DNA of 64,000 nt from Neoaquamicrobium microcysteis (GTDB lineage: Bacteria > Pseudomonadota > Alphaproteobacteria > Rhizobiales > Rhizobiaceae): positions 124,001-188,000 of the forward strand of contig NZ_VSZS01000066.1 in assembly GCF_008180155.1 (NCBI RefSeq), given 5' to 3'. Shown piece after piece: positions 29,267 through 53,206 of the stretch (the stretch's first letter is position 1; each line of letters begins with the position of its first letter). A program made the position numbers and the translations under genes. Below the pieces are notes generated by a model. That model was not told where the DNA came from, did no database searches, and worked only from the letters and a program-made list of their open reading frames with translations.

Positions 29267-29309
29267 GCATGGCTACAGGTCGCCAGTTCCGTAAGAGAGG
29301 CGTTTCGCG

Positions 29310-30827: not shown

Positions 30828-30830
30828 CGA

Positions 30831-31658: not shown

Positions 31659-31671
31659 AAGAGGAAATCAC

Positions 31672-33614: not shown

Positions 33615-33682
33615 TTTAGGCAACGCTGCAATAGCAGATCAAGGAGACAAGAGGCATCAACTAGCGGGCGGGGGTAAGGATC

Positions 33683-34573: not shown

Positions 34574-34673
34574 AGCGCGTCGCGATCTTTCAGATTCGCT
34601 CCATGTGCTTTAGCTGCCTGTTTTGAGGCATGTCTTCGTGCCGAAACCGATTCCCACTTTCGGGAGACATGCC
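34574..34673. repeat. Rhizobial-type palindromic intergenic element
   Basis: About 100 bp between two convergent genes. The right half is a hairpin GGCATGTCT (34627-34635) / AGACATGCC (34665-34673), with an inner CCGAAA / TTTCGG stem. The left half (GAGCGCGTCGCGATC...GATTCGCTC) forms another imperfect hairpin. From memory, near-identical elements (GCATGTCTT...CCGAAAACCGGTTCCCAC...) are dispersed in many rhizobial intergenic regions. It may act as a bidirectional transcript end here. Confidence 0.7.
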
Positions 34674-35729: not shown

Positions 35730-37033
35730 CAACGCAACCTCCGGGGCAGGGCATAGATGGGTTGGGCAACCAGCTGATGCGGGCTTCGCTCTGCGTCCCG
35801 TCGGGCCTGCCTGCGATGATGCCGCCTGTGCTGCATCGCGTATACCAGCGCGCAGATGGCGATGATGGTGACGATGCTGAACTGGAAGTAGGTGGTCACT
35901 TCGAGAAAGCTGGTGCAGATGACCTGGGTCATGAAAGCGGCAAAGAAAGCGCTTTCGGGCGAGGGTGAACGAAGAGCCCAGACGAGTACGCCGAAGAACG
36001 CGCCGTAGAGCATCAGAACCTGAATGCCGACGCCGATAATGCCGATCTCGACCGCGTTGGAAAGATAGGTGTTATGGAAGTTGAAGCCGCTGCGGCTGGC
36101 GATGCCGAACAAATCCCATAGCACCTCGGCCGGGATGTTGCCATGAACCCAGAACGCCTGGTAGCCGACGCCGAGCCATGGCCGGTCGGCAATCATCATC
36201 ATCGCGACTTCCCACAGGTCGGTGCGTCCGGTGAGCGTGTCGTCCTTGCCCGACAGGTTGAGGAAGCCGGACATGAGGGTCTCGCCATAGATCACGAGAA
36301 AGGCTGCTGCGATGATGCCGATGCAGACTGTGAAGCCGCCGGCAAGAAGGAGCAGGAGAGGTGGAAGCCTGCGCAGCAGCAGGACGGTGATTCCGACGCC
36401 GAGCGCTGGAACGATGAGGGTCATCGCGCCGGTCGATTGAGCGAGTATGAGCAGCGGGCCGCAGACCAGCAGCCCGCCCGCGGCCCCCCACCTGATGGGC
36501 CAGGGGCTTCCCCGGTCGAAAACGATGGCGAGCGCCGCCAATGCGAAGCCGGTGATGACGCCGGCAAAGGCGTTCTTGCTGCCGAAAATGCCGATCCAGG
36601 CTCCGATATCGTCGCGCACACGCCCGAACAGCAGGCTGCCGACGACGCCGAAGCCGTAAATCCAGAACAGGCAGCGCACGAATGCGATGGGGGCTACGCG
36701 ACCCGCAATGACGATTGCAACGGCGATGGTGAGCGCAAGCTGGATCGAATGACGCAGCGAGTTCGACGGATAGTCGGACCACAGAACGGAAAGCGCGCAG
36801 AAAGCCGGCAATGCGAACAGATACCAGTGGCGCACCAGCACCTGCATGCTTGCGAAGGGTTTGGATATCACCAGCAGCGAACCGGCGAGCAGGAACAGAA
36901 GCGCCGCGCGAGAGCCGAAGAGAGGATTGAGGATGAGCGCGGCAAGCGCGACGATCGTCAGGCTGACGGCGACATGGATGCGCAGAGGTCGCCGCGAGAC
37001 GTGGTCGAGCGTCTCGTAGGTCGCGAAGGTCAA
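35729..37033 (-). CDS. exoQ: Exopolysaccharide polymerase, ExoQ-like (O-antigen ligase/Wzy_C family)
   Basis: Inner-membrane polymerase that joins lipid-linked repeat units in the periplasm. 434 residues with about 11 helices and the Wzy_C signature in the periplasmic loop (FGSKNAFAG near 155; DTLTGRTDLWEVAMMMIADRPWLGVGYQAFW about 270-300). The only available start is TTG at 37033, which overlaps the exoF stop (TTGA), indicating coupled translation. The order exoY-exoF-exoQ is the same as in succinoglycan loci. Confidence 0.9.
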   Translation of the reverse strand: MTFATYETLDHVSRRPLRIHVAVSLTIVALAALILNPLFGSRAALLFLLAGSLLVISKPFASMQVLVRHWYLFALPAFCALSVLWSDYPSNSLRHSIQLALTIAVAIVIAGRVAPIAFVRCLFWIYGFGVVGSLLFGRVRDDIGAWIGIFGSKNAFAGVITGFALAALAIVFDRGSPWPIRWGAAGGLLVCGPLLILAQSTGAMTLIVPALGVGITVLLLRRLPPLLLLLAGGFTVCIGIIAAAFLVIYGETLMSGFLNLSGKDDTLTGRTDLWEVAMMMIADRPWLGVGYQAFWVHGNIPAEVLWDLFGIASRSGFNFHNTYLSNAVEIGIIGVGIQVLMLYGAFFGVLVWALRSPSPESAFFAAFMTQVICTSFLEVTTYFQFSIVTIIAICALVYAMQHRRHHRRQARRDAERSPHQLVAQPIYALPRRLR

Positions 37034-38280
37034 CCGGGCAGCCCCGGTGCGGTCTTCAGCGTGGTGCGGACCGAGATGATGTCGCCCGGCAGAACAGGAG
37101 TGTTCTCGCCCGCCGAAATCTGCTGCGTCACGCCATCGACCACACGCGTCAGCTCGAACGTCGTGTCCGGCTCGCCGCCCAGCACGCCGGGCAGGGTGCT
37201 GGCGAAGGAAACCGCCTCGGACAGGAGCCCGGCGTACATTTCCTGCCGCAGGGTGGCCTCGTCCAGCTCGGCTTCGGTCTTCTGGCGCTCCTGCGCAACC
37301 TCCGCCTCGATGTTGTTGCGCAGCCCGATGATCTCCTGCTCGGTCTTGCTGATTTCCTGCCGGGCGCGGAGCATGGATGTTTCCAGGTCAAGCTGCTTGC
37401 CTTCCATGTCGGCGATGGTGCGCTCTATGCCGAGCACGCGCGTGTTGACGACCAGCCCCTTCTGGGCGAGCGAGTCGACATCCGAAAGCTCGCGCCTTGC
37501 CAAGTCGATCTGGCGCTGCTGGGTGACGGACTTCTGCTCCAGCGCGGTGACCTCCCGTTGCAGCAGGTCGCGGAGGTCGTTGAGCACGTCGAGTTGCAGC
37601 GTCAGCTTGCGGTTGCGCGCAGTAAGGATCGACATTTCGTCGGCCATGATCGAACTGACGCGGGCGAGGCCCTCGAGCTCTTCGGCAACGGCGAAGCCTT
37701 CCTCGCCCTTCGCTTCGGCCTCAAGGCGGGCGCGGCGGACAAGAAGGCGCACCCGGTCCTGCGATGCGATGGCATGCTGGCCGCGGGCATTGATGAAGTC
37801 GCGTTCAATACGTGCGCCTTCAAGCCGGCGCTGGCCGCCGGCAAGGCTGACCGCCTTCAGCACCGTTATGCCGGGAACGAAGGCGTACTGGCCCGGCGCC
37901 TGAACGTCACCGTTGATGTAGAACGGGCGGTAGGTGGCGATCTCGACCGATGCCTGCGGCTTGTCTGACAGGCCGAAGCTCTGCTGGAGCGTATCGGAAA
38001 TCGCCTTCGAGATTTCAGCGGTGGTGAGGCCGCCTGCTTCCATCTCGCCCACGAAGGGCACAGACAGCCTGCCTGCCGAGTCGATCATGTATTCGCCGCT
38101 GATCGCGGTCCATTCGCGAAATGCGCCTTCGACGGTCTGCCACTCGACCACGCGAATGCGAAGCTTGTCCTGGCTGCCGAGCAGATAATCGTCCGCCTTT
38201 GCAGGCATCAGCGAAGCAAGCACGATGGCGATTGCAAACGCGGTGCGCGCGCCAAGTGTGCCGAGCGTGTTACGCATCAT
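37030..38280 (-). CDS. exoF: Polysaccharide export protein ExoF (Wza-like N-terminus, long coiled coil)
   Basis: A 416-residue exported protein. Signal peptide (ARTAFAIAIVLASLMPAKA), then the polysaccharide export (Wza/SLBB) domain: DDYLLGSQDKLRIRVVEWQ, GRLSVPFVGEMEAGGLT, and FYINGDVQAPGQYAFVPGITVLKAVSLAGG. Residues ~170-370 form a long coiled coil unlike Wza, as in ExoF. ATG at 38280 has AGGAG upstream. It works with ExoP and ExoQ in export. Confidence 0.92.
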   Translation of the reverse strand: MMRNTLGTLGARTAFAIAIVLASLMPAKADDYLLGSQDKLRIRVVEWQTVEGAFREWTAISGEYMIDSAGRLSVPFVGEMEAGGLTTAEISKAISDTLQQSFGLSDKPQASVEIATYRPFYINGDVQAPGQYAFVPGITVLKAVSLAGGQRRLEGARIERDFINARGQHAIASQDRVRLLVRRARLEAEAKGEEGFAVAEELEGLARVSSIMADEMSILTARNRKLTLQLDVLNDLRDLLQREVTALEQKSVTQQRQIDLARRELSDVDSLAQKGLVVNTRVLGIERTIADMEGKQLDLETSMLRARQEISKTEQEIIGLRNNIEAEVAQERQKTEAELDEATLRQEMYAGLLSEAVSFASTLPGVLGGEPDTTFELTRVVDGVTQQISAGENTPVLPGDIISVRTTLKTAPGLPG

Positions 38281-38316
38281 GGAAACTCCTGCGTTGCGCG
38301 CCTTTAGCGGCGCGCC

Positions 38317-38994
38317 TCAGTAACTGCCCCGCGAGAGACAGACGGCCGGTACGGTAAGGAGAATGATCCGCAGGTCGCCTGCAAGCGACCAGTTCTCGAT
38401 GTACTGGCGGTCGAAGGCGACGCGCGCCTCGTAGGACACGTCGCTGCGGCCGCTGACCTGCCACAGGCCGGTGAGGCCGGGACGGGACTTGAGGTAGCAA
38501 TCGGCGAACGGGCCGTAATGCTCGAGCTCGGCGTGAACCACGGGCCGCGGGCCCACGATGCTCATATCGCCCTGCAGGATGTTGAGAAGCTGTGGCAGCT
38601 CGTCGAGGCTGAGCTTGCGAAGCACGTGACCGACGCGGGTGACGCGCGGATCGTTCCGGAGCTTGCGCGTCGCGAGCCATTCATCGCGTGCGGCGGGGTT
38701 GTCACGCAGATGGGCCGCGAGAACTTCGTCGCCGTTTACCATCATGGTGCGGAACTTCAGGCAGGCAAAGCTGCGGCCGCCGCGCCCGATGCGGGCGTGA
38801 CCGTAGAAGGCCGGGCCGGGGTCCGTGATCTTCACCAGCGCGACCAGGAAGAGAAACAGCGGCAGCAGGGCGACGATGCCAAGGGAAGCGGCAACCACGT
38901 CGAACGCCCGCTTGAGCGTTCCACCCACCGGCGGCGTCCCATAGGACAACACCCTGGGGGAATCGAGATGTGCCGACTTCGCGAGATCACGCAT
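38317..38994 (-). CDS. exoY: Undecaprenyl-phosphate sugar phosphotransferase ExoY
   Basis: Starts the repeat unit by transferring galactose-1-phosphate (in succinoglycan) to undecaprenyl phosphate. 225 residues from ATG at 38994 (MRDLAKSAHL), almost the same length as ExoY of Sinorhizobium. One membrane anchor (AFDVVAASLGIVALLPLFLFLVALV), then the sugar-transferase domain: FYGHARIGRGGRSFACLKFRTM, RKLSLDELPQLLNILQGDMS, IVGPRPVV, SRPGLTGLWQVSGR. The C-terminus CLSRGSY is identical to ExoY as I remember it. An open upstream extension (ATG 39060) is less likely. Confidence 0.94.
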   Translation of the reverse strand: MRDLAKSAHLDSPRVLSYGTPPVGGTLKRAFDVVAASLGIVALLPLFLFLVALVKITDPGPAFYGHARIGRGGRSFACLKFRTMMVNGDEVLAAHLRDNPAARDEWLATRKLRNDPRVTRVGHVLRKLSLDELPQLLNILQGDMSIVGPRPVVHAELEHYGPFADCYLKSRPGLTGLWQVSGRSDVSYEARVAFDRQYIENWSLAGDLRIILLTVPAVCLSRGSY

Positions 38995-39590
38995 TGAACG
39001 ACCTATCCGAAGAACAATCCAATACGGCGACGATAGCATTCTAATGGTGCGTTGCAACATAATATTATCAAAAAATCATGAAAGATTTTTTCTTACCGTG
39101 ATCGAAACAATACTGTGATATTGCGCAATACATGTGCAAATTGACCAATTATTGTACATCGACTGTGTGTCATGTGAGTGACGGCCGTGGATGTGCTCAA
39201 TTTTCGATCTCCGCTGCCTTCATCGTTTCTCAAGAGCTCGCTGCTATGAGGGGCGGGCGAGGGGAATTTGCGTAGCATGCGTAACGGGTTATCCCATTGT
39301 CGGGCGGGCCGATGGACGGTGGCGAAAGCGCAGGCAGATGCGCCTGAAGCCGCAGTCGCGACAGCGTTCTGGTTGCATTGCAGCAAAGTGCCGCCGTGTG
39401 GGGCTGAGAGCCGGCACGTCTTGCGGGAAACCGCCGCTGGATTTATCCTACCTTTTGCCGGCATAGCGCGCAGTGCGGCGCGACGCGGGCGAGGAGGTCT
39501 GGTTTCGCAAACGCGTTCACGCGCGCTGCGATGCCGGGGAGGAAGTGAATTGATCGCAGGAGCCTGGGTCACCTCTGAGGAGCGGGTCGC
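38995..39590. promoter_or_regulatory. Divergent control region between exoY and exoX
   Basis: 596 bp. The exoY-proximal 250 bp are AT-rich and hold the perfect palindrome TATTGCGCAATA (39119-39130), with TGTGCAAATTG directly beyond. GTTGCATTGCAGCA (39372-39385) is the reverse complement of the 14-bp word found before exoK. The exoX-proximal part is GC-rich. A frame ending at 39594 overlaps the exoX start but resembles nothing I know and is not called. Confidence 0.55.
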
Positions 39591-39851: not shown

Positions 39852-39874
39852 AGCCGGCATAGCATCCCAACCGC

Positions 39875-41740
39875 TCACGTCGAGGCCTGTTCTCCCGCCA
39901 GCAGCCGTGAAAGCTGGCTGTGGGGATCCTTGCTGAGCTTGTCGAAGCGTCCCGACTCCACAACGCGTCCATTCTCAATGGCGATCACCCGGTCGGCGAA
40001 CGAAATCATCGAGGGGCGGTGCGCGATGGTAAGGATCGTCATCCGGCCGCGCAGCGCCTTGATGGATTGCGCTATAACCGTCTGGTTCTGCCAGTCGATC
40101 GCGCTCGTCGCCTCGTCGAGGATGAGCAGCGCGGGCTTGCGCAGCAACGCGCGGGCAAGCGCGATGCGCTGACGCTCGCCACCCGAGAGCCGCGCACCCC
40201 GATCGCCGATCACGGTTTGCAGACCTTTGTCGAGACGCTCGACGAACGGTGCAGCCATCGCCAAGCGCAAGGCCTCCCACATCTCGTCCTCGCCTGCCTC
40301 GGGCGCAGCCAAACGAAGGTTTGCGGCGATTGTGTCGTGCAGCAGAAAAACGTCCTGCGACACGTAGGCGACATGCGCGCGCCACGCGCGCATCAAGGAC
40401 TGATCGAGCGGCCGGCCGTCGATCTCGATCGCCCCCGAGGCCGGCTCGATCAGCCCCATGAGCAGGTCGGCTATGGTGCTCTTGCCGGAACCGGAGGGCC
40501 CGATAAGGGCAGTGATGCCGTTAGCCGGCATCGAGAAGGTGACGCCCTCGATAGCAGGACGTCTTGCGGAGGCGTCGTAACCGAAAGTCAGGTCGCGGAC
40601 CTTGATTTCCTTCTTAGGGTCGAAGCGGGCGGCTTCATCGACGCCCGGCCGTCCTGCCGGCTCACGCGCGGCATCGAATTTAGCGCGGACGGCTTCGGTT
40701 GCGTGGAAGGCCGGCAGGTTCATGACGATCTGCTGCACATAGGTCTGCGTTTCCATGAAGCGCGGCGCGATACGCATGAAGACCAGCAGCAGGACGACGG
40801 TCTCGGCCAGCGATAGCCGGTAGATCATAAGCGCGACATAGACGACGATGCAGACGCTGACCGCGCTGGCGATCTGGAACAGGGCCGTCGCCACCGTGCT
40901 AAGCCCGACATAGCGAGCATTGTCGTTTCTGATGCGCGTCAGCGTGTTGCGCAGGCGATCGAAATAGAGTTCCTCGGCGTTCATGCTCTTGGCGAGCTTC
41001 AGGCCGTGCAGGAACTCCGAGACGATGCGGAACTGGTCCTTGCGGTTGGTCGTGATCGTGTGGCCGTGAAGCGCGGCGCGCCTGCGGAAGGGTCGCAGGG
41101 TTACGAAGATCACGCATCCTACGGCCATGGCGACAAGTGTCATCGGGACGGATATCAGCAGCGATATCAGGAGATATGCCGAGAGCAGGACGCCCACCTG
41201 TGCGAGCAGGATGAGATAGTAGGCTGCGCCCTGCACGCGCTCGATATCGCTGTTGAGAGCGTGCTCGACATCGGCCGAACGCATCGTGCCGAACACGCCC
41301 CATCGCGCGCGCCCGATGCTTTCGAACAGGCGCATGCGCACGCCGTTGACGAAGTCGTCCAGCAAGGCCGCCATGTAGACCGACTTGACGCGGTTGAAGC
41401 CAGCCTGGGCGATGACCAGCAGCAGGAGCGCGGCGAGCGCCACACCCAGCGGAAATTCCAGCGCCGGCGTGGTCCAGCCTGGGAGGTGGATCGACGGGAT
41501 ACGGACGGCGAAATCCGCCCCGCTGCCGGCGGCGGAATGCAGGATCGGGATCAACAGCAGGATGGAAAAGCCCTCGGTCAGGCTTGCCAGCACGAGGAAG
41601 GCGATGGCTATGGCGATGCGCCGCCTGCCGTCGGCCAGCACGAAGCGGGCGAAGGCCGCGATGTCCCGCACCGAATAGGTCCCGGGCGGCGAGCTCTCGG
41701 TCGCCAGGGGCGGGGCTTCAGCGAGAGCTGCCTTGCCCAT
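39875..41740 (-). CDS. Lasso peptide ABC exporter (D protein; permease-ATPase fusion)
   Basis: A 621-residue half-transporter that should pump the finished lasso peptide out and give self-immunity. Six membrane helices (about 40-320) precede the ATPase domain: Walker A GPSGSGKST (414-422), Q-loop YVSQDVF, signature LSGGERQ (518-524), Walker B LLILDEA (538-544), H-loop AHRPS. No N-terminal C39 peptidase, consistent with a separate B2 leader protease. ATG at 41740 is 1 bp after the stop of the kinase gene. Last gene of the A-B1-B2-C-K-D operon. Confidence 0.92.
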   Translation of the reverse strand: MGKAALAEAPPLATESSPPGTYSVRDIAAFARFVLADGRRRIAIAIAFLVLASLTEGFSILLLIPILHSAAGSGADFAVRIPSIHLPGWTTPALEFPLGVALAALLLLVIAQAGFNRVKSVYMAALLDDFVNGVRMRLFESIGRARWGVFGTMRSADVEHALNSDIERVQGAAYYLILLAQVGVLLSAYLLISLLISVPMTLVAMAVGCVIFVTLRPFRRRAALHGHTITTNRKDQFRIVSEFLHGLKLAKSMNAEELYFDRLRNTLTRIRNDNARYVGLSTVATALFQIASAVSVCIVVYVALMIYRLSLAETVVLLLVFMRIAPRFMETQTYVQQIVMNLPAFHATEAVRAKFDAAREPAGRPGVDEAARFDPKKEIKVRDLTFGYDASARRPAIEGVTFSMPANGITALIGPSGSGKSTIADLLMGLIEPASGAIEIDGRPLDQSLMRAWRAHVAYVSQDVFLLHDTIAANLRLAAPEAGEDEMWEALRLAMAAPFVERLDKGLQTVIGDRGARLSGGERQRIALARALLRKPALLILDEATSAIDWQNQTVIAQSIKALRGRMTILTIAHRPSMISFADRVIAIENGRVVESGRFDKLSKDPHSQLSRLLAGEQAST

Positions 41741-41741
41741 C

Positions 41742-42722
41742 TCAGCTATCCGAGGCCAGGTCTTCGCGCACGAGCGCTGCGATTTCCGGCAGCCTGTCGA
41801 GGCCGTTCGGCACTGTCAGGCGGCGCATGCCGACAAGACCGGCGAGCCGGGCGCACTGGTCGAGGTGACGTGTCGCTTCGCTTCCCTGAAGCGCGTCACG
41901 ACCGAAGCGCGTCACATAGGAAAACTGCATCAGGCCGAGCAGGGACGCCTTTGCCGAAAGTGGCTCGACGGCCGCGGCCTCGCCGCGCTGAAGCAGATAA
42001 ATCCGACGGGCCGGAATGGGGGTCGTCGCGAAGGAAGACGGCACGCGATGCTGCCGCTTGAGGATTGCGGGATGCACCGACGGCTCCACGAACGCATCCG
42101 CGATGCGCACGGCCTGGGCGGCGTTCTCCGACAGCTTGAGCTGGGGAAAGCCGAGTTCGACGCGTGCGGCATTCCCCATATCTCTGGAGAGGACGACCAG
42201 ATCGTCGGTCAGCAGTGCGTGTCCAGCTTCGAGAAGAGCTGCCGCCGTGGTCGATTTGCCCGCGCCCTTGTCGCCGACGAAGATGGCGCAGCGGCCGCCG
42301 AGCGTCGTTGCGCTGGCGTGCAGGATCAGATGGCCACGTCGGTGAAGGAGCATGCCCAGGACCGGCCCGAGCAGCGGCAGCGCCAACAGCCGCTCATCGA
42401 CGCCGGGGGCGGGGTCGATCTCGATCAGTCCCGTTCCCACCACCCGGAAACGGCCGACCTGCTGCCACGAGAAATAGAGCTCTTCTTCCGAGAAGATGTG
42501 CATGTAGGAGACGGGATGCGGTTCGCGAGAGGGGATCGAGGCAAGCCTGATTTCGACGTCGGCTGCGGTGGCCGCGTTGCCCGAGGCCAGCATCAGTTCG
42601 GGCAGGGCGACCTGCGAAGCGATGTCGAGCCCGAAGGCGCGATAGCGCGCATGCGCCTCGAGTGTCTCATCGTATCGAGGCGGGCAGGCTTCGCCGCAGG
42701 CGGCTGTCGTGTGGATCGTCAT
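41742..42722 (-). CDS. HPr-kinase-like lasso peptide kinase (K protein)
   Basis: A 326-residue protein with the HPr kinase/phosphorylase core: HASATT (His135), Walker A GDKGAGKST (150-158), and the acidic LTDDLVVL (172-179). No HPr or PTS gene is near. Homologues in lasso clusters (the paeninodin kinase, as I recall) phosphorylate the side chain of the precursor's C-terminal serine. The precursor here does end in Ser. ATG at 42722 overlaps the stop of the C gene (ATGA), so it is part of the operon. Confidence 0.88.
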   Translation of the reverse strand: MTIHTTAACGEACPPRYDETLEAHARYRAFGLDIASQVALPELMLASGNAATAADVEIRLASIPSREPHPVSYMHIFSEEELYFSWQQVGRFRVVGTGLIEIDPAPGVDERLLALPLLGPVLGMLLHRRGHLILHASATTLGGRCAIFVGDKGAGKSTTAAALLEAGHALLTDDLVVLSRDMGNAARVELGFPQLKLSENAAQAVRIADAFVEPSVHPAILKRQHRVPSSFATTPIPARRIYLLQRGEAAAVEPLSAKASLLGLMQFSYVTRFGRDALQGSEATRHLDQCARLAGLVGMRRLTVPNGLDRLPEIAALVREDLASDS

Positions 42723-44602
42723 GCCATGACTCCCTGGCGGCGCAGCAGGCCAAGCCACATCGACAGGGATGCGGCGCGCCATACTGCCTGAACCTCGTCA
42801 AAGGGGGCGTTGTCTGGGTCGCGCAGCAGCCTTTCGCATGCAGCGCGGGCTGCGCCGATGTTGACGAACGGTGCGATGCTTTCGCTGTCGGCCCCGAATG
42901 TGCGCTCCAGCAGGGCGCGATGGTTGCGCACCATGCCGCCGGTGAGGTTCGGGCCGAAATTGACCTTGCTGTGCCGCCACTGCACCGCGGACGGCAGGAT
43001 GCCGCCCATCGCCTGTCGCAGGACGTAGCGCGTCCAACCGTCGTTCAGCTTGGCTTCGGCCGGCAGCGACAGGCAGAATTCGGCCAGCCGCTTGTCCCAG
43101 AAAGGATAGCGTTGCTCGATGCCGAAATGCGCGGCCGATTTGTCCAGCACCTCGAAGGCATGGGAGATGAGACCGCTGGTGAGTTTCCACCGGTGGGACA
43201 GCATCTCGCTTGAAAGCGCCACGCCCGGCATCCGCGCGAAGCGATGGGCGCGCTCGGCGAGGTTGGTCCTGCGGGCAAGGTCCGGATTGACGAGGCCGAG
43301 CGGGTCGGCCGTCTGCCGGCTGAGGCGGGAGACGAGGCGGCGTCGAGCGCGCTCCAGCCGCGCAACCGGGCCGTAGATCGTGAGCAGCCCCAGATATGTC
43401 TGGGTGGCGCTGGTGGCGTGAACCCGCGCGACGCCGCGCAATTCGCGCCATAGCGCCAGCCACCGGCCTTCTGCTGCAAGTTCGTGCAGCCGGCCGTAGC
43501 CATGGGAGACCACCTCGTCGCCGCCATGACCGTCCAGGAGGACGCGGACGCCATCGTTGCGCGCGGCCGAAAGAAGCTGGCGCGTTGCCGACAGGCCGGG
43601 GGCAAGGAAGGTGCTTTCCTGCTCATCCAGGATCGTCTCGAACTCGCGAAAGGGAGCATGCTCGACAAGCGGAATGAAGTTGGCAGCAAAACCACCCTGC
43701 GCCAGCACCGCGTCGATATAGGGACGCTCGTCCATCGACGAGCCGCGCTCGAAGACCATCGAATAGGACGGCAGCGCCTTCTGAGAGCCGACTGCCCGGA
43801 GATCGCGCGCGACACAGGCGATAGACGAGGAATCGAGACCGCCGCTGAGCATCGTCCCCAGCGCCTGGGTGCCGCGCATGCGCACCCGTACGGCTTCCGT
43901 GAAGAGATGCCTGAACTGTTCGATCGCGTCGGGGCCGGGGTTCGGCCGAGGCTCGATGCGATAGTATTGCCGGACGGCGAGGGTGCGGCCGTCCGTCGAA
44001 AGACAATGCCCCGCTGGAAGACGACGAAGCTGGGAATAGACGGTTGCCGCGCTGTCGTCCGGCATGCCAGCCAGCATCCCCGCCACATGGTCCTGGTCGA
44101 GGGTTGCGGTCACGCCCGTTGCCAGAAGCGACTTCATTTCGGACGCGAATACAAAACCGGACGGGCCGAGGTGGTAGTAGAAGGGCTTCACGCCGAATTG
44201 GTCGCGCGCGCAATAAAACTCGCGGCGGTCGCCGTCCCAAATGGCAAAGGCGAAATCGCCTTCCAGCCTTTCGGCGCAAGCCCTCTCCCAGCGCAGATAG
44301 GCGTAAAGTATCATCTCCGCGTCGCTCGCTTCGCGATCACGCATGCCCAGACGCGCCAACAATTCGTCGCGGTTGTCGAGCCGGCAGTCCGCCACCACGA
44401 CATAACGACCGGCGAAACGGACAAGCGGTCCGCCGGTCGTCTCAGCCGTGGTGTTGAGCCAGCAATGGCCGAGATGCGCCGCGCCTGACGACCAGGTTGC
44501 ACTGCCGTCGCGCGCGCGGTGCTTCATCGCCGCGACCATGCGATCGATGAGGGGGGCCGTCGTGGGCGCATTTGCTGGGAAAATGCCGGCGATCCCGCTC
44601 AT
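42719..44602 (-). CDS. Lasso macrolactam synthetase (C protein, asparagine synthetase-like)
   Basis: A 627-residue asparagine-synthetase homologue. In lasso synthesis it adenylates an Asp/Glu side chain and lets the core's N-terminal amine attack, closing the ring. The N-terminal Ntn domain starts MSGIAGIF: the catalytic Cys2 of true AsnB is Ser, so glutaminase activity should be lost, as expected when no ammonia is needed. The ATP-pyrophosphatase motif SGGLDSSS (253-260) and LLDGHGGDEV are intact. ATG at 44602, 8 bp after the B2 stop. Confidence 0.93.
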   Translation of the reverse strand: MSGIAGIFPANAPTTAPLIDRMVAAMKHRARDGSATWSSGAAHLGHCWLNTTAETTGGPLVRFAGRYVVVADCRLDNRDELLARLGMRDREASDAEMILYAYLRWERACAERLEGDFAFAIWDGDRREFYCARDQFGVKPFYYHLGPSGFVFASEMKSLLATGVTATLDQDHVAGMLAGMPDDSAATVYSQLRRLPAGHCLSTDGRTLAVRQYYRIEPRPNPGPDAIEQFRHLFTEAVRVRMRGTQALGTMLSGGLDSSSIACVARDLRAVGSQKALPSYSMVFERGSSMDERPYIDAVLAQGGFAANFIPLVEHAPFREFETILDEQESTFLAPGLSATRQLLSAARNDGVRVLLDGHGGDEVVSHGYGRLHELAAEGRWLALWRELRGVARVHATSATQTYLGLLTIYGPVARLERARRRLVSRLSRQTADPLGLVNPDLARRTNLAERAHRFARMPGVALSSEMLSHRWKLTSGLISHAFEVLDKSAAHFGIEQRYPFWDKRLAEFCLSLPAEAKLNDGWTRYVLRQAMGGILPSAVQWRHSKVNFGPNLTGGMVRNHRALLERTFGADSESIAPFVNIGAARAACERLLRDPDNAPFDEVQAVWRAASLSMWLGLLRRQGVMA

Positions 44603-44610
44603 GGTGCGTC

Positions 44611-45024
44611 TCAGCCGATGACGTGAAGCTGGTTGTAGCCGGCAAGCGAGCTAGCGCTGCCGCCCAGGACGATGCAGTCGCCGCTGACAAGCCAGGCGTG
44701 GGCGCGGATGCGGGCCAGCGAGCCGCGCTCCACGCCCAGATGAATCTGAGCCTTGTAGCCGTGGCGGGCCAGCAGATACTGGCCCGCCAGCGCCTGTGTC
44801 AGGCAGGTGGCTCCCGGAACGAGCCGCGCCGTCGCCGCGACGCCCCATGATACACGGCGAAGGATTTGCACGGGGGCAGGCCCGCCGACAGGCATAGCCG
44901 CGATGTGGTCGCTGACCACACGAAACCGGCCGAGGGTAAGGCCGCCGCGAATGACCGCCACGACTGCCAGGCAGTGGAGCAGGAAGAGGCGACGCCTGAA
45001 AGGGGGGATGCCCTCATCCTGCAT
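44611..45024 (-). CDS. Lasso leader peptidase B2 (transglutaminase-like cysteine protease)
   Basis: A 137-residue protein that removes the precursor's leader. It shows the B2 family core PGATCLTQALAGQYLLARHGYKAQ split by usual spacing, then ARIRAHAWLVSGDCIVLGG. The presumed catalytic residues are Cys74, His109 and probably Asp116. The size fits a stand-alone B2 paired with a separate B1. Start ATG at 45024 overlaps the 3' end of B1 by 11 bp; a longer upstream frame is a shadow of B1. Confidence 0.92.
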   Translation of the reverse strand: MQDEGIPPFRRRLFLLHCLAVVAVIRGGLTLGRFRVVSDHIAAMPVGGPAPVQILRRVSWGVAATARLVPGATCLTQALAGQYLLARHGYKAQIHLGVERGSLARIRAHAWLVSGDCIVLGGSASSLAGYNQLHVIG

Positions 45025-45310
45025 GTTCGGCCTGCTCCCAACGGATGAGACCGGCGGTCTCCAGCCTCGAAAGCAGGGTCTGCACGTCGCTAACGCAGCG
45101 CGCCGGCTCCACATCGTAAGTCGCCGTTACCCGATCGACTATTTCCGAAACGGGCAAAGGCGTCCTTATCTGTTCCCAGATGAAGGCGCCAACATCGTTC
45201 AGGCTGAAATAGGTGTTTCCTGCGAGATCGAGCAGCGCAACGCCGCTTCCGAACTCGCATGCGACCACCTGAGGTGAAGAAACAACGGCATTCTTACTGG
45301 TACTCATCAT
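45014..45310 (-). CDS. Lasso B1 protein (PqqD-like RiPP recognition element)
   Basis: A 98-residue winged-helix PqqD-family protein that binds the leader peptide and presents it to B2 and C. Typical features: VALLDLAGNTYFSLNDVGAFIWEQI, then the helical tail IVDRVTATYDVEPARCVSDVQTLLSRLETAGLI. Two successive ATGs (45310 and 45307) can start it. It is separated from the precursor gene by 172 bp that hold a long perfect stem-loop. Confidence 0.92.
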   Translation of the reverse strand: MMSTSKNAVVSSPQVVACEFGSGVALLDLAGNTYFSLNDVGAFIWEQIRTPLPVSEIVDRVTATYDVEPARCVSDVQTLLSRLETAGLIRWEQAEHAG

Positions 45311-45381
45311 TTACATCACCAGGAACACGTTGCGCAGCGGTCAATGCCCACATCATCTTTTCTTCTTTTGCAGGCGATGGT

Positions 45382-45441
45382 GGGTGACGGAGATTTCGGG
45401 TTCAGTATTTCAGGAGAATTTCCGGATAAGCTCCGTCACCC
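45382..45441 (-). promoter_or_regulatory. Stem-loop between the lasso precursor and B1 genes
   Basis: GGGTGACGGAG (45382-45392) and CTCCGTCACCC (45431-45441) form a perfect 11-bp stem with a 38-nt loop, in the 172-bp gap between precursor A and B1. There is no U-tract after it on the minus strand, so it is probably an mRNA 3'-end stabiliser or attenuator that keeps precursor mRNA above enzyme mRNA. That role is inferred from the operon layout. Confidence 0.7.
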
Positions 45442-45482
45442 CTTAGGTTCGCCCCCTATTGATGGGAGCGGTCCCTGTCAGA

Positions 45483-45635
45483 TCACGAGAAGGTCAGATC
45501 GCCGAAAGGCGTACCCGTCGGGAAAGTCGCGTCGAGCGCAGTACCGGTCGAAGCGCCCTGAGTAATCTGCTCGATCGAACCATGAGCTTCGAGGTTCGGA
45601 GTCTCGTATTCTCTTTTCGGGGTGCTGGTTTTCAT
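45483..45635 (-). CDS. Lasso peptide precursor (A)
   Basis: A 50-residue precursor. Leader 1-26 carries the signature YxxPxLxxxGxxxxxTx exactly: Tyr10, Pro13, Leu15, Gly19, Thr25 (the -2 residue). Core 27-50 (24 residues) begins GASTGTALD, so Gly27 would be joined to the side chain of Asp35 in a 9-residue ring. The 15-residue tail starts ATFPTGTPF and ends GDLTFS. There is no cysteine, so a class II lasso peptide. The C-terminal Ser50 suits the nearby kinase. ATG at 45635 has GGAG 7 nt upstream; a longer upstream frame is rejected. No close relative of the core is known to me. Confidence 0.93.
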   Translation of the reverse strand: MKTSTPKREYETPNLEAHGSIEQITQGASTGTALDATFPTGTPFGDLTFS

Positions 45636-46082
45636 TTGCTCACTCCATTGTGTGGTGGGGCTACGGCAAGTTGTCTGCCGGCAGGCAATGCTGCGCTGCA
45701 ATAGCTGCATGGCCGCATTTAGCTGTCAAGCACCATTTACGTTTCGTTATCCATCTTGTACTTCATTTTGCGTGATTTCATCATGCGAGAATGAATAAAA
45801 TTCGATGTAAGACTCTTTCTTGGCTAAGGAGATGAAATTGCTTGTGGGCGCTAACTAACTGATTTTCCTAATATGAGGAAAAATTGTGCAGCGCAAAAAT
45901 TATGCACATGATGTACATTTGCGCATCATGCATAGTTTGCAGGCTAATGTTGAAGAAAAGACAAGTCATAAATGGTGTTCATCCTGTCGTTTATTGTATA
46001 GGCTGCAATTGTGGGTATCCGTTGCAGCGACCCTGCGCGGGAGCCGGGCGGCCGACGATCGGAGGCGAACAGGAAGAGCGAG
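45636..46082. promoter_or_regulatory. Divergent control region of the lasso operon and the nucleotidyltransferase-exoU pair
   Basis: 447 bp, AT-rich. For the minus strand, TTGACA (plus 45724-45729 as TGTCAA) and GCTATT (45700-45705) lie 18 bp apart, a plausible lasso-operon promoter. GCTGCA-type words overlap its -10 (45689-45710). On the plus-strand side, AATTGTGCAGCGC and TTATGCACATG (45893-45910) and CATGATG/CATCATG (45907-45930) form TGCA-rich inverted repeats. No supported gene lies inside. Confidence 0.5.
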
Positions 46083-47276
46083 ATGCAGGAAACGGGTGTT
46101 GCGATGCGCGAGACGAGCGAGGGGCTGGCGATGCCGGCAACGTGCGTCCGTGCCGCCGCCGCCCCGGATTTTCGACAGCGCCTACCCGCGACGGAAGGGG
46201 AACTGGCGGGCGAGATCGCACTGGTGCGCGCCGCCTTGGCGCGTTTCCTGAAACTGCAGCATGATGGCATTGCCGAGCCGATCTCGCAGGAGCGCGAGTT
46301 GCTGACACTCGTGCGCCTCAACAAGATCGGGAACGTGCTGCGGTTCGAGCGAGACGATTTCGTATCGAATGATGCCTGGAGCCGCACCGGCGGCTTTCTC
46401 GATGCCTACCGCCGCAAGACGAACGCGATCAATTCGGCAACGCTTTCCGCTACGCTGCACGCAGCGGCCGGCCTTAGGGAGGAGAAGGTCGATTTCGTCC
46501 TGTTCAAAGGGCCGCTGCAGCAGAAAGAGCTTTACGGCAACTATTACGCGAAGCCTTCCGGAGACGTGGACATTCTGGTGCATCCAGGGGACTTCGCCAG
46601 CGCGCGCGCCTGCCTGATGCGTCATGGTTACGGTGTCGAACGGCGTGCGAATTCGCTATGGTGGTCTCATTTTCTCGGCGAGCAGCATATGGTGCGCGAC
46701 GGCGGAGCTGCCGGAGTGATCGACCTTCATCACCGGTTGCAGCAGCCGGGCATGCCGCGCCCGCGTGACAGCGCGCTTTTCATGGCCCGCGCCGCCACGA
46801 TTGATTTGGCCGGAACCGCCCTGCCGTTTCTGGACCCGGCGGACACGGTTCTGCTTTCCTCTATCAGCATCGCGAAGGCGTTCTTCAATCGCGAGCCCTG
46901 CGCGTCGCATGTGTGCGACCTCCATGCCGGCCTGCGCCGCATGGATACTGACGGTCGGCAGGCATTGGTCGCAAGGGCGCGGGACGAGGGCCTGCACGGC
47001 ACGCTGATGCTGGGGGTGAGAACCTGCTGGAGCCTTCTGGGCGTATGGCATGACGGACTGTCGGGACAATCGGGCGAGGTTCTGCCCGCGACGGGCGACG
47101 ATGAACTGCGTCTCATGATCCTGGCTCCATGGCTTAACGCCATCGATTGGCCCAAGCGCCGCGACATCCTGTGGAACCTCTGCGACCGGCGCTACCGGCG
47201 CTTCATGGTCGAGGCAGCATGGGCGGCTTCGTCGGAGGTCGGTCGCCGGCTGTGGGCGGAGCGCGGCAATGCATAG
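46083..47276 (+). CDS. Nucleotidyltransferase family protein (lasso-associated NTase)
   Basis: A 397-residue protein with the NTP_transf_5 fold: FVLFKGPLQQKELYGNYYAKPSGDVDILV, where KG (142-143) and DVD (161-163) are the catalytic motifs. Such NTases recur in lasso clusters that also carry an HPr-like kinase, where (as I recall for pseudomycoidin) the phosphorylated C-terminus is modified further. ATG at 46083 follows AGGAAG. Divergent from the lasso operon; its stop overlaps the exoU start by 8 bp, so it is cotranscribed with a glycosyltransferase. Alternatively it belongs to the polysaccharide pathway. Confidence 0.85.
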   Translation: MQETGVAMRETSEGLAMPATCVRAAAAPDFRQRLPATEGELAGEIALVRAALARFLKLQHDGIAEPISQERELLTLVRLNKIGNVLRFERDDFVSNDAWSRTGGFLDAYRRKTNAINSATLSATLHAAAGLREEKVDFVLFKGPLQQKELYGNYYAKPSGDVDILVHPGDFASARACLMRHGYGVERRANSLWWSHFLGEQHMVRDGGAAGVIDLHHRLQQPGMPRPRDSALFMARAATIDLAGTALPFLDPADTVLLSSISIAKAFFNREPCASHVCDLHAGLRRMDTDGRQALVARARDEGLHGTLMLGVRTCWSLLGVWHDGLSGQSGEVLPATGDDELRLMILAPWLNAIDWPKRRDILWNLCDRRYRRFMVEAAWAASSEVGRRLWAERGNA

Positions 47277-48306
47277 CGCGAGCGTTTCGACAGCGATCGA
47301 GGTCGCAATCATCATTGCGGCGAAGGATGCGGCAGCAACCATCGGCGAGGCGGTGGTTTCGGCGCTGGCGGAAACGGAAACGCGCGAGGTGATCGTGGTC
47401 GATGACGGTTCCTCCGACGGGACATCACCGGCGGCCTGGGCCGCCGATGATGGCAGCGGGCGGCTGAGCGTCATCAGGCTCGATGCCAATCGCGGCCCTT
47501 CCCATGCGCGAAACCTCGCCATCGAGCGGTCGACATCGCCTTTCATTGCGATACTGGATGCCGACGACAGGATCTTGAAGGGCCGCTTCCGCACATTCGA
47601 CGCCACCGCGCGATGGGATATCGCGGCAGACAACATCCTGTTCGTGGACGAGCGGGCTGCCCTTTCACTTGCGGACATCGCGATGCCGGCGGCGTGCAGC
47701 GCCCCGCGTTTGTTGAGCCTGGACGATTTCATCGACGGCAACATCTCGCGGCGTGGGATGAATCGCGGAGAATTCGGCTTCCTCAAGCCGGTCATCCGGC
47801 GCAGCTTTCTCGATGCGCACGGGCTGCGCTATTCGCGGCATCTGAGGCTGGGCGAGGACTACGACCTTTACGCCCGCGCACTGATCTGCGGAGCCGTATT
47901 CGAACTGCTGCCGAGCTGCGGGTATCTCGCGCGGGTGCGCGCCAACTCGCTGAGCGGAAGACATCGGACGGAGGATTTGCGCCGGCTGGCGGCTGCGTCG
48001 CGGGCGCTGCTGCGCGCCGACGGGCTGGCCGACAGTTCGCGGCAGCGGCTGCAGGTGCATGCGCGGCAGGTGCGCGACAAGTACAGGCTACGGCGGTTCC
48101 TCGATCTCAAGCGCCGCTCGCCGTTGGCGGCGGCAGGCTTCCTGCTGTCGAGCGCGCAGGGGGCGCGCGCGGTCATCCGCGGCGTGCTTGCCGACAAAGT
48201 TGCCGCGGCGCGAAGGGCGTTGGCACCAATGAATGCCCGGCAGAATCGCGAGCCGTTCCGGTTCCTGTTTCCCGTAAGGCCGGTGGAAGCGAATGTGGAA
48301 AAATGA
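47269..48306 (+). CDS. exoU: Glycosyltransferase family 2, ExoU-like
   Basis: A 345-residue GT2 enzyme. The N-terminus EVAIIIAAKDAAATIGEAVVSAL and ANRGPSHARNLAIERSTSPFIAILDADD (DxD) closely resemble ExoU, the sixth-step glucosyltransferase of succinoglycan synthesis, as I remember it. Start ATG at 47269 lies inside the end of the nucleotidyltransferase gene. The coupling leaves open that it glycosylates the lasso peptide, but its resemblance to ExoU makes an exopolysaccharide role more likely. Confidence 0.82.
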   Translation: MHSASVSTAIEVAIIIAAKDAAATIGEAVVSALAETETREVIVVDDGSSDGTSPAAWAADDGSGRLSVIRLDANRGPSHARNLAIERSTSPFIAILDADDRILKGRFRTFDATARWDIAADNILFVDERAALSLADIAMPAACSAPRLLSLDDFIDGNISRRGMNRGEFGFLKPVIRRSFLDAHGLRYSRHLRLGEDYDLYARALICGAVFELLPSCGYLARVRANSLSGRHRTEDLRRLAAASRALLRADGLADSSRQRLQVHARQVRDKYRLRRFLDLKRRSPLAAAGFLLSSAQGARAVIRGVLADKVAAARRALAPMNARQNREPFRFLFPVRPVEANVEK

Positions 48307-48760: not shown

Positions 48761-49061
48761 CCGGGGAAACCGGCCAGCGCCTTCGACATCGTCGCGAATG
48801 CCGGCGGCTCGGCCGTTCCGAAAGAATATTTCTTTCGGCATTTAATATTTATGTCATACCGGTAATGTAACGTGAGATTGGAGCAGAATCACGATAGTTG
48901 GATTCTGCCTTTGCCGTAATCACGGCGTGATTAAATTTCGAATTTTGTGCAGAAATTTTGTGCAACGCGGCAAAATATAGCTGCAGTGCAACAAGTCTTC
49001 TTGCGGTGCAAAAAATTGTCCTTTAGGCTTAGTGCATCGGGGCAATTGTTGGTGTCGCCTG
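48761..49061 (+). promoter_or_regulatory. AT-rich control region in front of the exoL-exoP block
   Basis: 301 bp. After the terminator at 48818 comes an AT-rich stretch with an 11-bp direct repeat AATTTTGTGCA at 48941-48951 and 48954-48964 (13-bp period), AGCTGCAGTGCAAC (48979-48992; 12 of 14 bases of the word before exoK), and GTGCAAAAAATTG near 49006. These TGCA-rich words look like binding sites of a regulator. Confidence 0.5.
48818..48846 (+). terminator. Terminator after the exoU transcript
   Basis: CCGAAAGAA (48818-48826) and TTCTTTCGG (48830-48838) form a perfect 9-bp stem with a 3-nt loop, followed by CATTTAATATTTATG. It ends the transcript carrying the nucleotidyltransferase, exoU and the small coiled-coil frame, and separates it from the exoL block. 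Confidence 0.65.
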
Positions 49062-50225
49062 ATGCTGCGGGTTCTCTATCTCGTTCATGACATTTGTGAG
49101 CCTGCCGTGCGTCGGCGGGTCATGATGCTGAAGGCTGGAGGCGCGCGAGTGACGCTGGCCGGGTTTCGCCGGTCGTCCGCTTCGCCCGCCGATCTCGGCG
49201 ACGTGGTGCCAGTCGATCTGGGTACGACGAAAGACGCCGGCTTTGGGCAAAGGATCGCGGCTGTCGCGCGGGTGGCGATGACCATTCAGGGCCGCCTTGG
49301 CGGGGATGGCGTGCCAGACGTGATCGTCTGCCGCAATCTGGAGATGCTGGCGCTGGCCGCCCGCCTGCGAGCGCTTTACGCCTGGGCGCGGGTGCCCGTT
49401 GCCTACGAATGCCTGGACATCCACCGGCTTATGCTGCGGGAGGACGCTTTGGGTGCGGCCATGCGCGCCCTCGAGCGGTATCTGGCGCGCGACGTGAGCC
49501 TGCTGATGACGAGCTCACCAGCCTTCGTGCGGCACTATTTTCGTGCACGAAACCAGGTTTCGTCTCCTGTGGAACTGCTTGAAAACAAGCATTTCGAACC
49601 GATGGAGACCGGAGGCAACGCGTTGCACCGGCTGGAGCGCGCGCCCTGGCGGATCGGTTGGTTCGGCGCGCTGCGCTGCCGCCGCTCGCTGTTGACGCTG
49701 GCCGATTTCGTACGCGCCATGGATGGGCGTTTCGAGGTGGTATTGCGGGGGAAGCCGGCGCTGACCGCCATTCCCGACTTCCACGACATCGTCGCGGCGG
49801 AGCCGCATCTGCGCTTCGAGGGACCGTACCGCAACCCCGAAGACATCGCGGACATATACCGAGAGGTGCACTTCTCGTGGGTCGTCGACTATTTCGAGGC
49901 GGGACTGAATTCGTCCTGGCTTCTGCCGAACCGTCTCTATGAAGGGTGCCGCTTCGGCGCGATCCCCATCGCGGTTGCGGGTACGGAGACGGCGCTGTTC
50001 CTGCGCCATCGCGGCATAGGCGTGCAATTGCCCGACCTGTCGACCGACCAGCTGGTGGAAATGCTGGGCGATATGGATACCACGACCGTCGAACAGCTCC
50101 GGGGCAAGGTTCTGGAGCAGGATCGCAAGACCTGGACCTTCGACGGCGAAGACTGCCGAAAGCTCGTGACGCTGCTGAGCCGACTGAACCTGCATCCCCC
50201 CGAAGCTTCGATGAAACCGGCCTGA
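49062..50225 (+). CDS. exoL: Glycosyltransferase, ExoL-like
   Basis: A 387-residue GT-B-type enzyme from ATG at 49062 (MLRVLYLVHDICEPAVRRRVMMLKAGGARVTLAGFRR). This N-terminus is characteristic of ExoL, which adds the third sugar (glucose) of succinoglycan. C-terminal donor region: YFEAGLNSSWLLPNRLYEGCRFGAIPIAVAG. First gene of the block exoL-exoA-exoM-exoN-exoP, which resembles the succinoglycan order. Confidence 0.85.
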   Translation: MLRVLYLVHDICEPAVRRRVMMLKAGGARVTLAGFRRSSASPADLGDVVPVDLGTTKDAGFGQRIAAVARVAMTIQGRLGGDGVPDVIVCRNLEMLALAARLRALYAWARVPVAYECLDIHRLMLREDALGAAMRALERYLARDVSLLMTSSPAFVRHYFRARNQVSSPVELLENKHFEPMETGGNALHRLERAPWRIGWFGALRCRRSLLTLADFVRAMDGRFEVVLRGKPALTAIPDFHDIVAAEPHLRFEGPYRNPEDIADIYREVHFSWVVDYFEAGLNSSWLLPNRLYEGCRFGAIPIAVAGTETALFLRHRGIGVQLPDLSTDQLVEMLGDMDTTTVEQLRGKVLEQDRKTWTFDGEDCRKLVTLLSRLNLHPPEASMKPA

Positions 50226-50246
50226 AGGCCTGCCGCGAGAGTGCTC

Positions 50247-51254
50247 ATGACGGATCCTTCTTCTCATTTCCCCCGGGTTCTCATCGTCATCCCCTGCCTC
50301 AACGAGGTGGCGCACATCGAAAGCGTTCTCGATCAGTTGACAGGTTCGGTCGAGAGGCTGGGCGCGACAGTAGCGGTTGCCGACGGCGCCAGCCGCGACG
50401 GGACGCGGGAGCTGGTGGCAGAGCTGGCGCATAGCAGCCAATGGCTGCATCTCGTCGACAATCCCGGACGGCTGCAAAGCGCAGGCATCAACAAGGTCGT
50501 GCGCGAACACGGCGACGCGTTCGATTTCCTCATCCGTGTGGATGCCCATGGCATCTACCCGGAAGACTATTGCGATCGGCTGGTGGAGGAGGCGTTTGCG
50601 ACGGGAGCCGACGCTGTCGTGGTATCCATGCTGACCTCCGGTTCCGGCCTGTTCCAGAGTGCGGCAGCCATCGCGCAGAACTCCAAACTCGGGAACGGCG
50701 GCTCAGCCCATCGATCTGCGACGATGGGGCAGTGGGTGGAGCACGGCCACCATGCGCTGATGAGCGTGAGGTCCTTCCTCGCCGTCGGCGGCTACGACGA
50801 GACGTTCTCTCACAATGAGGATGCGGAGTTCGATTTTCGCCTGCGGCAGGCCGGCGGCCGCATCTGGCTGACAAGCGCCACGCAGATGACCTATCTGCCA
50901 CGCGCTACACTGCCGACGCTTTTCGCACAATATCTAAAATATGGGCGTGGACGCGCGCGTAACGTGCTCAAGCATCGCATCGTACCGCGCGTCCGGCAGA
51001 TGATCCCGCTACTGGTCGCACCGAGCGTGCTGTTGGCAGCCCTGAGCCCGATACACTGGGCGGCTGCGGTGCCGATGCTGCTGTGGATGCTGGTGTGCCT
51101 CGGGTTCGGCACGGCTGCGGGCATCGCGGCGAAACGGCCAGAGCATTTCCTCGCCGGCGTCTCAGTCATGGTCATGCACCTCGCCTGGTCGCTTGGCTTC
51201 TGGCAGCAGCTGCTCGCATCGACGATGGTTCCGACGAGGCCGAGTCATGGATAG
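50247..51254 (+). CDS. exoA: Succinoglycan glucosyltransferase ExoA-like (GT2)
   Basis: A 335-residue GT2 enzyme with C-terminal membrane helices. N-terminal motif VLIVIPCLNEVAHIESVLDQL; acidic DxD-like motif IRVDAHGIYPEDYC; GHHALMSVRSFLAVGGYDETFSHNEDAEFDFRL is the GT2 C-terminal block. In succinoglycan ExoA adds the first beta-1,3-linked glucose. ATG at 50247 is preferred over GTG at 50241. 21 bp after exoL; its stop overlaps the exoM start. Confidence 0.88.
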   Translation: MTDPSSHFPRVLIVIPCLNEVAHIESVLDQLTGSVERLGATVAVADGASRDGTRELVAELAHSSQWLHLVDNPGRLQSAGINKVVREHGDAFDFLIRVDAHGIYPEDYCDRLVEEAFATGADAVVVSMLTSGSGLFQSAAAIAQNSKLGNGGSAHRSATMGQWVEHGHHALMSVRSFLAVGGYDETFSHNEDAEFDFRLRQAGGRIWLTSATQMTYLPRATLPTLFAQYLKYGRGRARNVLKHRIVPRVRQMIPLLVAPSVLLAALSPIHWAAAVPMLLWMLVCLGFGTAAGIAAKRPEHFLAGVSVMVMHLAWSLGFWQQLLASTMVPTRPSHG

Positions 51255-52197: not shown

Positions 52198-52260
52198 AAC
52201 GACCGTCGTCTACAGCCGTCGAAAAACCATACCCAACCCGTTCCGCTTCAAGGGGATGTC

Positions 52261-53157: not shown

Positions 53158-53206
53158 CCATCGGCAACGCAATCACGTCCGCATCCGCGCGACAGACGAG
53201 AAGCGA

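Follow-up and report, generated by a model that had tools for sequence, protein, structure and literature searches.

The window, that is, the whole stretch of DNA analysed here, comprises 64,000 nucleotides of the 4.84 Mb genome of Neoaquamicrobium microcysteis (RefSeq assembly GCF_008180155.1, contig NZ_VSZS01000066.1, positions 124,001 to 188,000). Positions 39875–47276 carry a complete lasso-peptide gene cluster, A-B1-B2-C-K-D, plus a divergent gene, N, of the NTP_transf_5 family, as identified by Pfam, NCBIfam and the translations. A first-pass annotation of the sequence had proposed a complete cluster of a precursor, B1, B2, C, K, an exporter and a divergent nucleotidyltransferase, and all of these genes are indeed present. 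Lasso clusters are defined by a YxxPxL leader, threonine at position −2, a small residue at core position 1, and Asp or Glu at positions 7–9. Lasso peptides of class II have a cysteine-free core. The genes are as follows.

45483..45635, minus strand: lasso precursor A, 50 amino acids, with a 26-residue leader carrying the exact leader motif and the core GASTGTALDATFPTGTPFGDLTFS
45014..45310, minus strand: B1, PqqD-like leader-recognition protein (RRE); PqqD PF05402, 3.9e-19
44611..45024, minus strand: B2, leader peptidase; Transglut_core3, 1.6e-19; NCBIfam lasso_biosyn_B2 NF033537, 62.3 bits (cut-off 33)
42719..44602, minus strand: C, lasso macrolactam synthetase with an asparagine-synthetase fold; Asn_synthase, 2e-58; NF033535, 666 bits (cut-off 525)
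41742..42722, minus strand: K, HPr-kinase-like peptide kinase; Hpr_kinase_C PF07475, 1.3e-5, 25 bits (Pfam cut-off 33)
39875..41740, minus strand: D, ABC exporter with membrane and ATPase domains; ABC_tran PF00005 and ABC_membrane PF00664
46011..47276, plus strand: N, predicted tailoring enzyme with the NTP_transf_5 nucleotidyltransferase fold, start codon uncertain; PF14907, 8.8e-27
47269..48306, plus strand: GT2 glycosyltransferase, overlapping N by 8 bp; PF00535, 9e-20

The gene ends had been described as mostly overlapping or abutting. B1/B2 overlap by 11 bp and C/K by 4 bp, and gaps of 8 bp and 1 bp separate B2 from C and K from D, respectively. N lies on the opposite strand and is transcribed away from A. 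The PDB matches of B1 are lasso B1 proteins (9x90, TbiB1 and TfuB1), and Cys74 and His109 of B2 are invariant among 13 sequences. No peptidase domain occurs among the Pfam domains listed for D. A scan of positions 45300–46150 returned no consensus promoters. An open reading frame at 39093–39878 (minus strand), considered as an extra cassette gene, was dropped, as it has no Pfam family and its translation is unlike a real protein.

Precursors and relatives

The leader of A matches YxxPxLxxxGxxxxxTx exactly, and its 24-residue core starts with Gly1, has Ser3 and Asp9, ends in Ser24 and lacks cysteine, in keeping with class II. The first-pass annotation had read the same leader, Gly1 and Asp9, and its predicted ring of nine residues closed between Gly1 and Asp9, with a 15-residue tail, gains support from the gene content and from the related precursors. 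The precursor itself scores under the cut-off of three NCBIfam lasso models (29.4 against 33, 18.3 against 19, and 12.1 against 30 bits). GGAG stands just upstream of its ATG. A longer in-frame open reading frame, from 45710, lacks this support.

The relatives form a set of 84 distinct loci, all picked through B2: 80 from one scan of named genomes with an alignment of 13 B2 sequences (the best 80 of the 121 relatives it gave), the window, and six further loci, less three duplicates (L139, L166 and L169) removed before counting. Because most are congeneric, the 84 loci are not independent observations; 67 of the 80 scan titles name Mesorhizobium, and among the remainder are Caulobacter, Pseudaestuariivita, Rhizorhabdus, Sphingomonas, Salinarimonas, Paracoccus and Luteovulum. 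At all 84 loci the motif-bearing precursor is accompanied by B1, B2, C and K; D is found at 83 and N at 81. The three loci without N are L086 and L129, both at contig ends, and L173 of Paracoccus chinensis, where no N match occurs in the 18 kb read, and K and the Ser tail are kept. On a plasmid related to L173 (L227), an annotated nucleotidyltransferase gene lies about 4.5 kb from the lasso genes.

The precursors vary within narrow limits. The core is 24 residues long at 83 of the 84 loci and 29 in Caulobacter (L165), where an insertion precedes the terminal IFS; tail length can thus vary, with Asp9 and the final Ser kept. Asp9 is present at all 84 loci and Gly1 at 82, and the last residue is always Ser, within TFS (82 loci), TLS (one) or IFS (one). 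There are 38 distinct cores, the commonest of which is common to 24 loci. Across the 36 distinct, unambiguous 24-mers, positions 9, 12, 22 and 24 are constant and ring positions 2–7 are variable; position 24 is Ser in all 36, and position 3 is A, S, G or Q. The ratio of nonsynonymous to synonymous substitution rates (dN/dS) among 68 Mesorhizobium-type precursors is 0.009 for the leader from its Tyr, 0.19 for the core, 0.32 for the ring and 0.09 for the last five residues. These ratios indicate strong purifying selection on the precursors. Because the precursor motif and B1, B2, C and K recur at every distinct locus, with this core dN/dS, chance would be an unreasonable explanation of the cluster.

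The B2 family model has matches in one of the eight genomes of the genus, in 30 of 394 genomes at family level and in 33 of 385 at class level; the window's own B2, used as a query, has matches in 22 of 397 genomes of the order. A midpoint-rooted tree of 46 C sequences, from which controls whose C was weak or short had been excluded, places 21 family cyclases on one branch (support 100/99), the Sulfitobacter branch being long. Outside it fall 24 other alphaproteobacterial lasso-type C sequences and one paeninodin-type C from the Bacilli (Priestia, L228). Judged by this tree, the window's cluster belongs to a distinct alphaproteobacterial lasso family. The family branch includes two plasmid-borne relatives: that of Paracoccus sp. 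MC1862, whose precursor has Gly1, Asp9 and a TFS end, and that of Sulfitobacter indolifex, which keeps Asp9 and has a TLS end. A precursor match on a Nostoc plasmid (H1) was not used, as no lasso enzymes are listed in the nearby annotation, of which the gene table is incomplete; the Priestia match was used solely as a reference for the Bacilli.

A possible transcript feature separates A from B1.

45382..45441, minus strand: stem-loop between A and B1; 14-nucleotide inverted repeat (93%), fold of −41.4 kcal/mol, z −3.6 (z −2.7 in a second computation)

The stretch after A has a z better than −2 in 13 of the 19 loci folded, with sequences that differ between loci. The stem-loop may protect or attenuate the A transcript, or may set an excess of precursor.

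Other B2-like matches were seen alongside the family. Eight loci in relatives from the family and order (L056, L057, L060, L061, L073, L074, L090 and L092) combine a lasso-B2-like match with B1-, HPrK- or N-like genes, and have no C homologue in the 11–17 kb stretch fetched. They encode one to seven tiny peptides resembling MKKxYxKPxLxKRxKLxxVTA followed by a short tail (seven in L090). Such loci may produce ribosomally synthesised and post-translationally modified peptides (RiPPs) that need no cyclase, perhaps analogous to the LPP peptides of Bacilli. In addition, a second B2-like match lies 12–29 kb from the lasso cassette in five genomes of the Mesorhizobium-type genus; three such loci (L077, L079 and L081) have weak K-, B1- or N-like matches and lie in the same polysaccharide region.

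Exopolysaccharide setting and empty sites

Polysaccharide genes identified by Pfam lie on both flanks of the cluster.

28478..39060: exopolysaccharide (EPS) genes on the D side: GH16, Polysacc_synt, glycosyltransferases, pyruvyl transferase, Wzy_C, Poly_export (Wza) and Bac_transf
49032..55654, plus strand: EPS genes on the N side: glycosyltransferases, NTP_transferase (sugar nucleotide) and a Wzz/GNVR protein

The cluster therefore sits in an EPS locus, between its divergent halves, as the first-pass annotation had stated from the sequence. Homologues of the window's EPS proteins were found at 81 of 86 other loci, where the 86 include the three duplicates, one genome with a 4.5-kb contig is counted twice among the misses, and the window's own proteins, among them general GT2s, served as queries. 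A second comparison used Pfam models over whole genomes, the distances for L165, L172, L173 and L174 being calculated manually from the locus coordinates. Of the 12 family lineages, 8 have their nearest Poly_export or Bac_transf gene no more than 10 kb away, against 1 of 32 genomes with other lasso-type B2 loci (Fisher p 2e-5); at a limit of 15 kb the counts become 9 of 12 and 3 of 32 (p 5e-5). These controls are counted per genome rather than per lineage, several have a B2-like match without a cyclase in the fetched stretch, and short contigs may hide a neighbouring marker. L167, L168 and L171 were scored as having none, as no marker match could be placed on their contig. In three further control genomes (G783, G1147 and G1040), the marker is at roughly 8.7–13.8 kb. 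The family is more strongly linked to EPS genes than the other lasso-type B2 loci are, and most related lineages have kept the EPS location.

The same association is found on plasmids. The 42-kb plasmid of Paracoccus sp. MC1862 (L227:1395-18620) is annotated with the cassette and a nucleotidyltransferase, GT2, GH16, O-antigen ligase, sugar transferase and GNVR protein. This compact EPS-plus-lasso locus fills much of the plasmid, and is a possible vehicle for spread. On the Sulfitobacter plasmid, the cassette is surrounded by glycosyltransferase, polysaccharide, sugar-transferase and Wzz genes, and by transposases.

The limits of the cassette can be read from natural empty sites. Two genomes, presumably of Mesorhizobium, have no B2 match (G353 and G382) and retain the orthologous EPS locus, in which Wzy, Wza and Bac_transf face the same GT2, and some 0.85–0.93 kb separate the Bac_transf and GT2 frames, taken from stop to stop. 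Between Bac_transf and GT2, neither site has a match to N, A, B1, B2, C, K or D; the far end of L221 holds one weak match (54 bits) to an ABC transporter. Consequently, N and D travel with the lasso cassette, and GT2 belongs to the EPS locus, whose genes persist in the absence of the peptide. That N is a member of the lasso cassette, like the conserved EPS location, goes beyond what the first-pass annotation had claimed. The GT2 at 47269 was also considered as an obligatory lasso gene, and was rejected because it stays at the empty sites and because N stands without a GT2 homologue next to it in eight loci, which represent six lineages.

The empty sites bear on two other explanations. According to the first, N and GT2 serve EPS synthesis only and the peptide is untouched by N. 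The window's own arrangement would suit this, as N diverges from A and reads into GT2. It is nevertheless improbable: N is missing along with the peptide genes at both empty EPS loci, it lies on the same strand as the lasso genes and after them in sphingomonads and Caulobacter, and nucleotidyltransferase genes accompany K in published lasso clusters (PMC9266682, PMC10368454, PMC13381572).

The second explanation, which is compatible with the proposed biosynthesis, holds that the product is an ordinary antagonistic lasso peptide and that the EPS locus is merely a variable island with no functional tie to it. The cassette does come and go, being present in a minority of the genus and missing from the two empty sites; two lineages have no clear EPS neighbours; and the patchy gain and loss of paeninodin clusters in Bacilli has been taken as a sign of conflict genes (PMC13381572). 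A mere island would fit less well with an EPS linkage that holds across several orders with differing gene orders, and on two plasmids, or with the fusion of N to an EPS-type GT2 in two genomes. Nor is the core changing rapidly, given the one sequence common to 24 loci and the core dN/dS reported above. The absence of a functional tie is accordingly a doubtful reading, albeit one that deserves serious consideration.

Tailoring enzymes and proposed role

Lasso peptides with a kinase and a nucleotidyltransferase are already published (paeninodin, pseudomycoidin and Bsf), as is the occurrence of paeninodin clusters at capsule loci in Bacilli. A C-terminal Ser is the target of the kinases PadeK, ThcoK, SyanK and PsmK, and PsmN attaches hexoses to the resulting phosphate (PMC9266682, PMC8498205); SyanK, from Sphingobium yanoikuyae, polyphosphorylates this residue (PMC9266682). 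BsfK, in contrast, phosphorylates Ser3 (PMC10368454). Paeninodin and LPP clusters of Bacilli often co-localise with capsular polysaccharide loci, their role being stated as unknown and a role in biofilms only speculated on (PMC13381572). In a rumen survey, the genes next to Butyrivibrio lasso genes include a kinase, a nucleotidyltransferase, a GT2 and EpsH (PMC7533575), and a fusion of N with B2 is mentioned for Firmicutes (PMC8498205).

The window shares features with the following systems. Like the window, the pseudomycoidin (psm) cluster of Bacillus pseudomycoides is a lasso cluster with K and N, and there the C-terminal Ser is phosphorylated and hexosylated (PMC9266682, PMC8498205). An N gene of the nucleotidyltransferase family is likewise part of the window's cassette. 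Unlike the window, pseudomycoidin, compared here by its published description, comes from a Firmicute, and an EPS locus is not mentioned in the available portions of those papers. Paeninodins share K acting on a C-terminal Ser, split B1 and B2, and frequent location in capsule loci, but have Trp-type leaders and a B1 clade confined to Bacillota (PMC13381572), whereas the window's leader has Tyr. Membership of the paeninodin clade was rejected on this Tyr leader and on the position of the Priestia C outside the family branch, which is the single Bacilli sequence in the tree. The SyanA/SyanK cluster, compared by description, is also alphaproteobacterial with a K acting on a C-terminal Ser (PMC9266682), and the window's family has sphingomonad members of its own (L168, L170 and L171). 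The Bsf cluster of Bradymonas sediminis has all of A, B1, B2, C, D, K and N, but its Ser3 is phosphorylated, its core ends in Asp and it has Ile at −2 (PMC10368454). The LPP RiPPs of Bacilli share the RRE, HprK-like kinase, NTP transferase, exporter and capsule loci, and differ in having no cyclase and a leader cut by a signal-peptidase-like enzyme (PMC13381572).

The kinase of the window has the residues expected of its family. His135, Lys156, Asp173 and Asp174, which make up the His-Lys-Asp-Asp kinase motif, are invariant among 27 sequences, and the AlphaFold model (predicted local distance difference test, pLDDT, 90) has PEPCK and HPr kinase as its Foldseek matches. Since Ser24 is invariant and position 3 variable, Ser24 is favoured as the phosphorylation site. 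The presence of K and of an invariant Ser at the C terminus argues for a phosphorylated product, which the first-pass annotation had not proposed; that annotation noted neither the C-terminal Ser nor the overlap of N with GT2. A different target would be a ring residue such as Ser3, the residue modified by BsfK (PMC10368454) and one that the window's core possesses, with the C-terminal Ser kept for threading or recognition. Position 3, however, is Ser in only 13 of the 36 distinct 24-mers, in contrast to Ser24, and in Sphingobium it is the C-terminal Ser that SyanK modifies (PMC9266682), so that modification of the ring is very unlikely.

The role of N is less closely defined. Lys166-Gly167 and Asp185-x-Asp187 are invariant among 26 sequences. 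The model of N (pLDDT 83.8) is most similar by Foldseek to MenT1 (8e-5), followed by LnuA, FKRP and ANT(2'') at 2e-3 to 4e-3; a sequence search of PDB returned one match, at E 0.31, which is not meaningful. N may transfer a nucleotidyl or alditol-phosphate group or, by analogy with PsmN, a hexosyl group. At 71 of the 84 loci, N is followed immediately on its own strand by a GT2 homologue, the open frames being at most 96 bp apart. In two genomes of one genus (L088 and L089), N and GT2 are fused into a protein of 743 amino acids, and the glycosyltransferase half in L088 is 45% identical to the window's GT2. This arrangement suggests that N and GT2 act together.

Based on the enzyme families and published relatives, the cluster probably directs the synthesis of a class II lasso peptide that is phosphorylated, further tailored and exported, and is co-produced with the polysaccharide at whose locus the cassette lies. 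B1 would bind the YxxPxL leader, and K would phosphorylate the C-terminal Ser24 of the linear precursor. B2 would then cleave after Thr(−2)-Gln(−1), and C would link the amine of Gly1 to the side chain of Asp9 around the tail. N would add a further group to phospho-Ser24, most likely a hexose and possibly with the adjoining GT2, before D exports the product. Since the cassette, from A to D with N, lies between the divergent halves of an EPS locus, the peptide is probably made together with the polysaccharide, and would act at the cell surface or in the matrix. The gene content, its conservation, the clade, the proximity to EPS genes, the empty sites and the fusion are shown by the analysis; we infer threading, the phosphorylation of Ser24, the action of N and a joint function with EPS, the last being the least secure.

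Several observations weigh against this account. B2 is missing from 7 of the 8 genomes of the window's genus. The first core residue is not always Gly, being Gln in L075 and Ala in L165, and the Sulfitobacter indolifex core (L226:13980-14168) would start with Thr if the register holds, an unusual ring donor. The Pfam score of K is below the gathering cut-off (25 against 33 bits), and the core's own Ser3 offers K a second candidate target. N has no NCBIfam match, and its fold neighbours are nucleotidyl- and ribitol-phosphate transferases, of which only three matches pass E 0.001. N also lacks a GT2 homologue beside it in the eight loci mentioned above (L083, L093, L165, L167, L168, L170, L171 and L172). 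Finally, no EPS homologue was found in the 18 kb of the sphingomonads L168 and L171 and of Salinarimonas L172, and the sphingomonad L170 has only a GT2 and a weak GH16, indicating that co-location with EPS genes is not obligatory.

The first-pass annotation had called the cluster apparently undescribed. The core strings are indeed absent from the literature searched, with most subscription journals outside that search, while clusters of this kind are already published. Within the same literature, searches for lasso peptides with Mesorhizobium, rhizobia, exopolysaccharide and syanodin did not return this alphaproteobacterial family, its measured EPS link, its empty sites or its N-GT2 fusion.

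A more specific role can also be envisaged, in which N and GT2 build a sugar on the Ser24 phosphate from EPS-type donors, so that the lasso peptide would carry, or be covalently tied to, an EPS unit as a component of the matrix. We regard this as unlikely. If true, alphaproteobacteria, including many Mesorhizobium species, would possess a lasso-capped polysaccharide for surface structure or signalling. With its slowly changing peptide, defined cassette, natural empty EPS loci and an N-GT2 fusion that suggests glycosylation, the family offers a tractable test of paeninodin-like roles.

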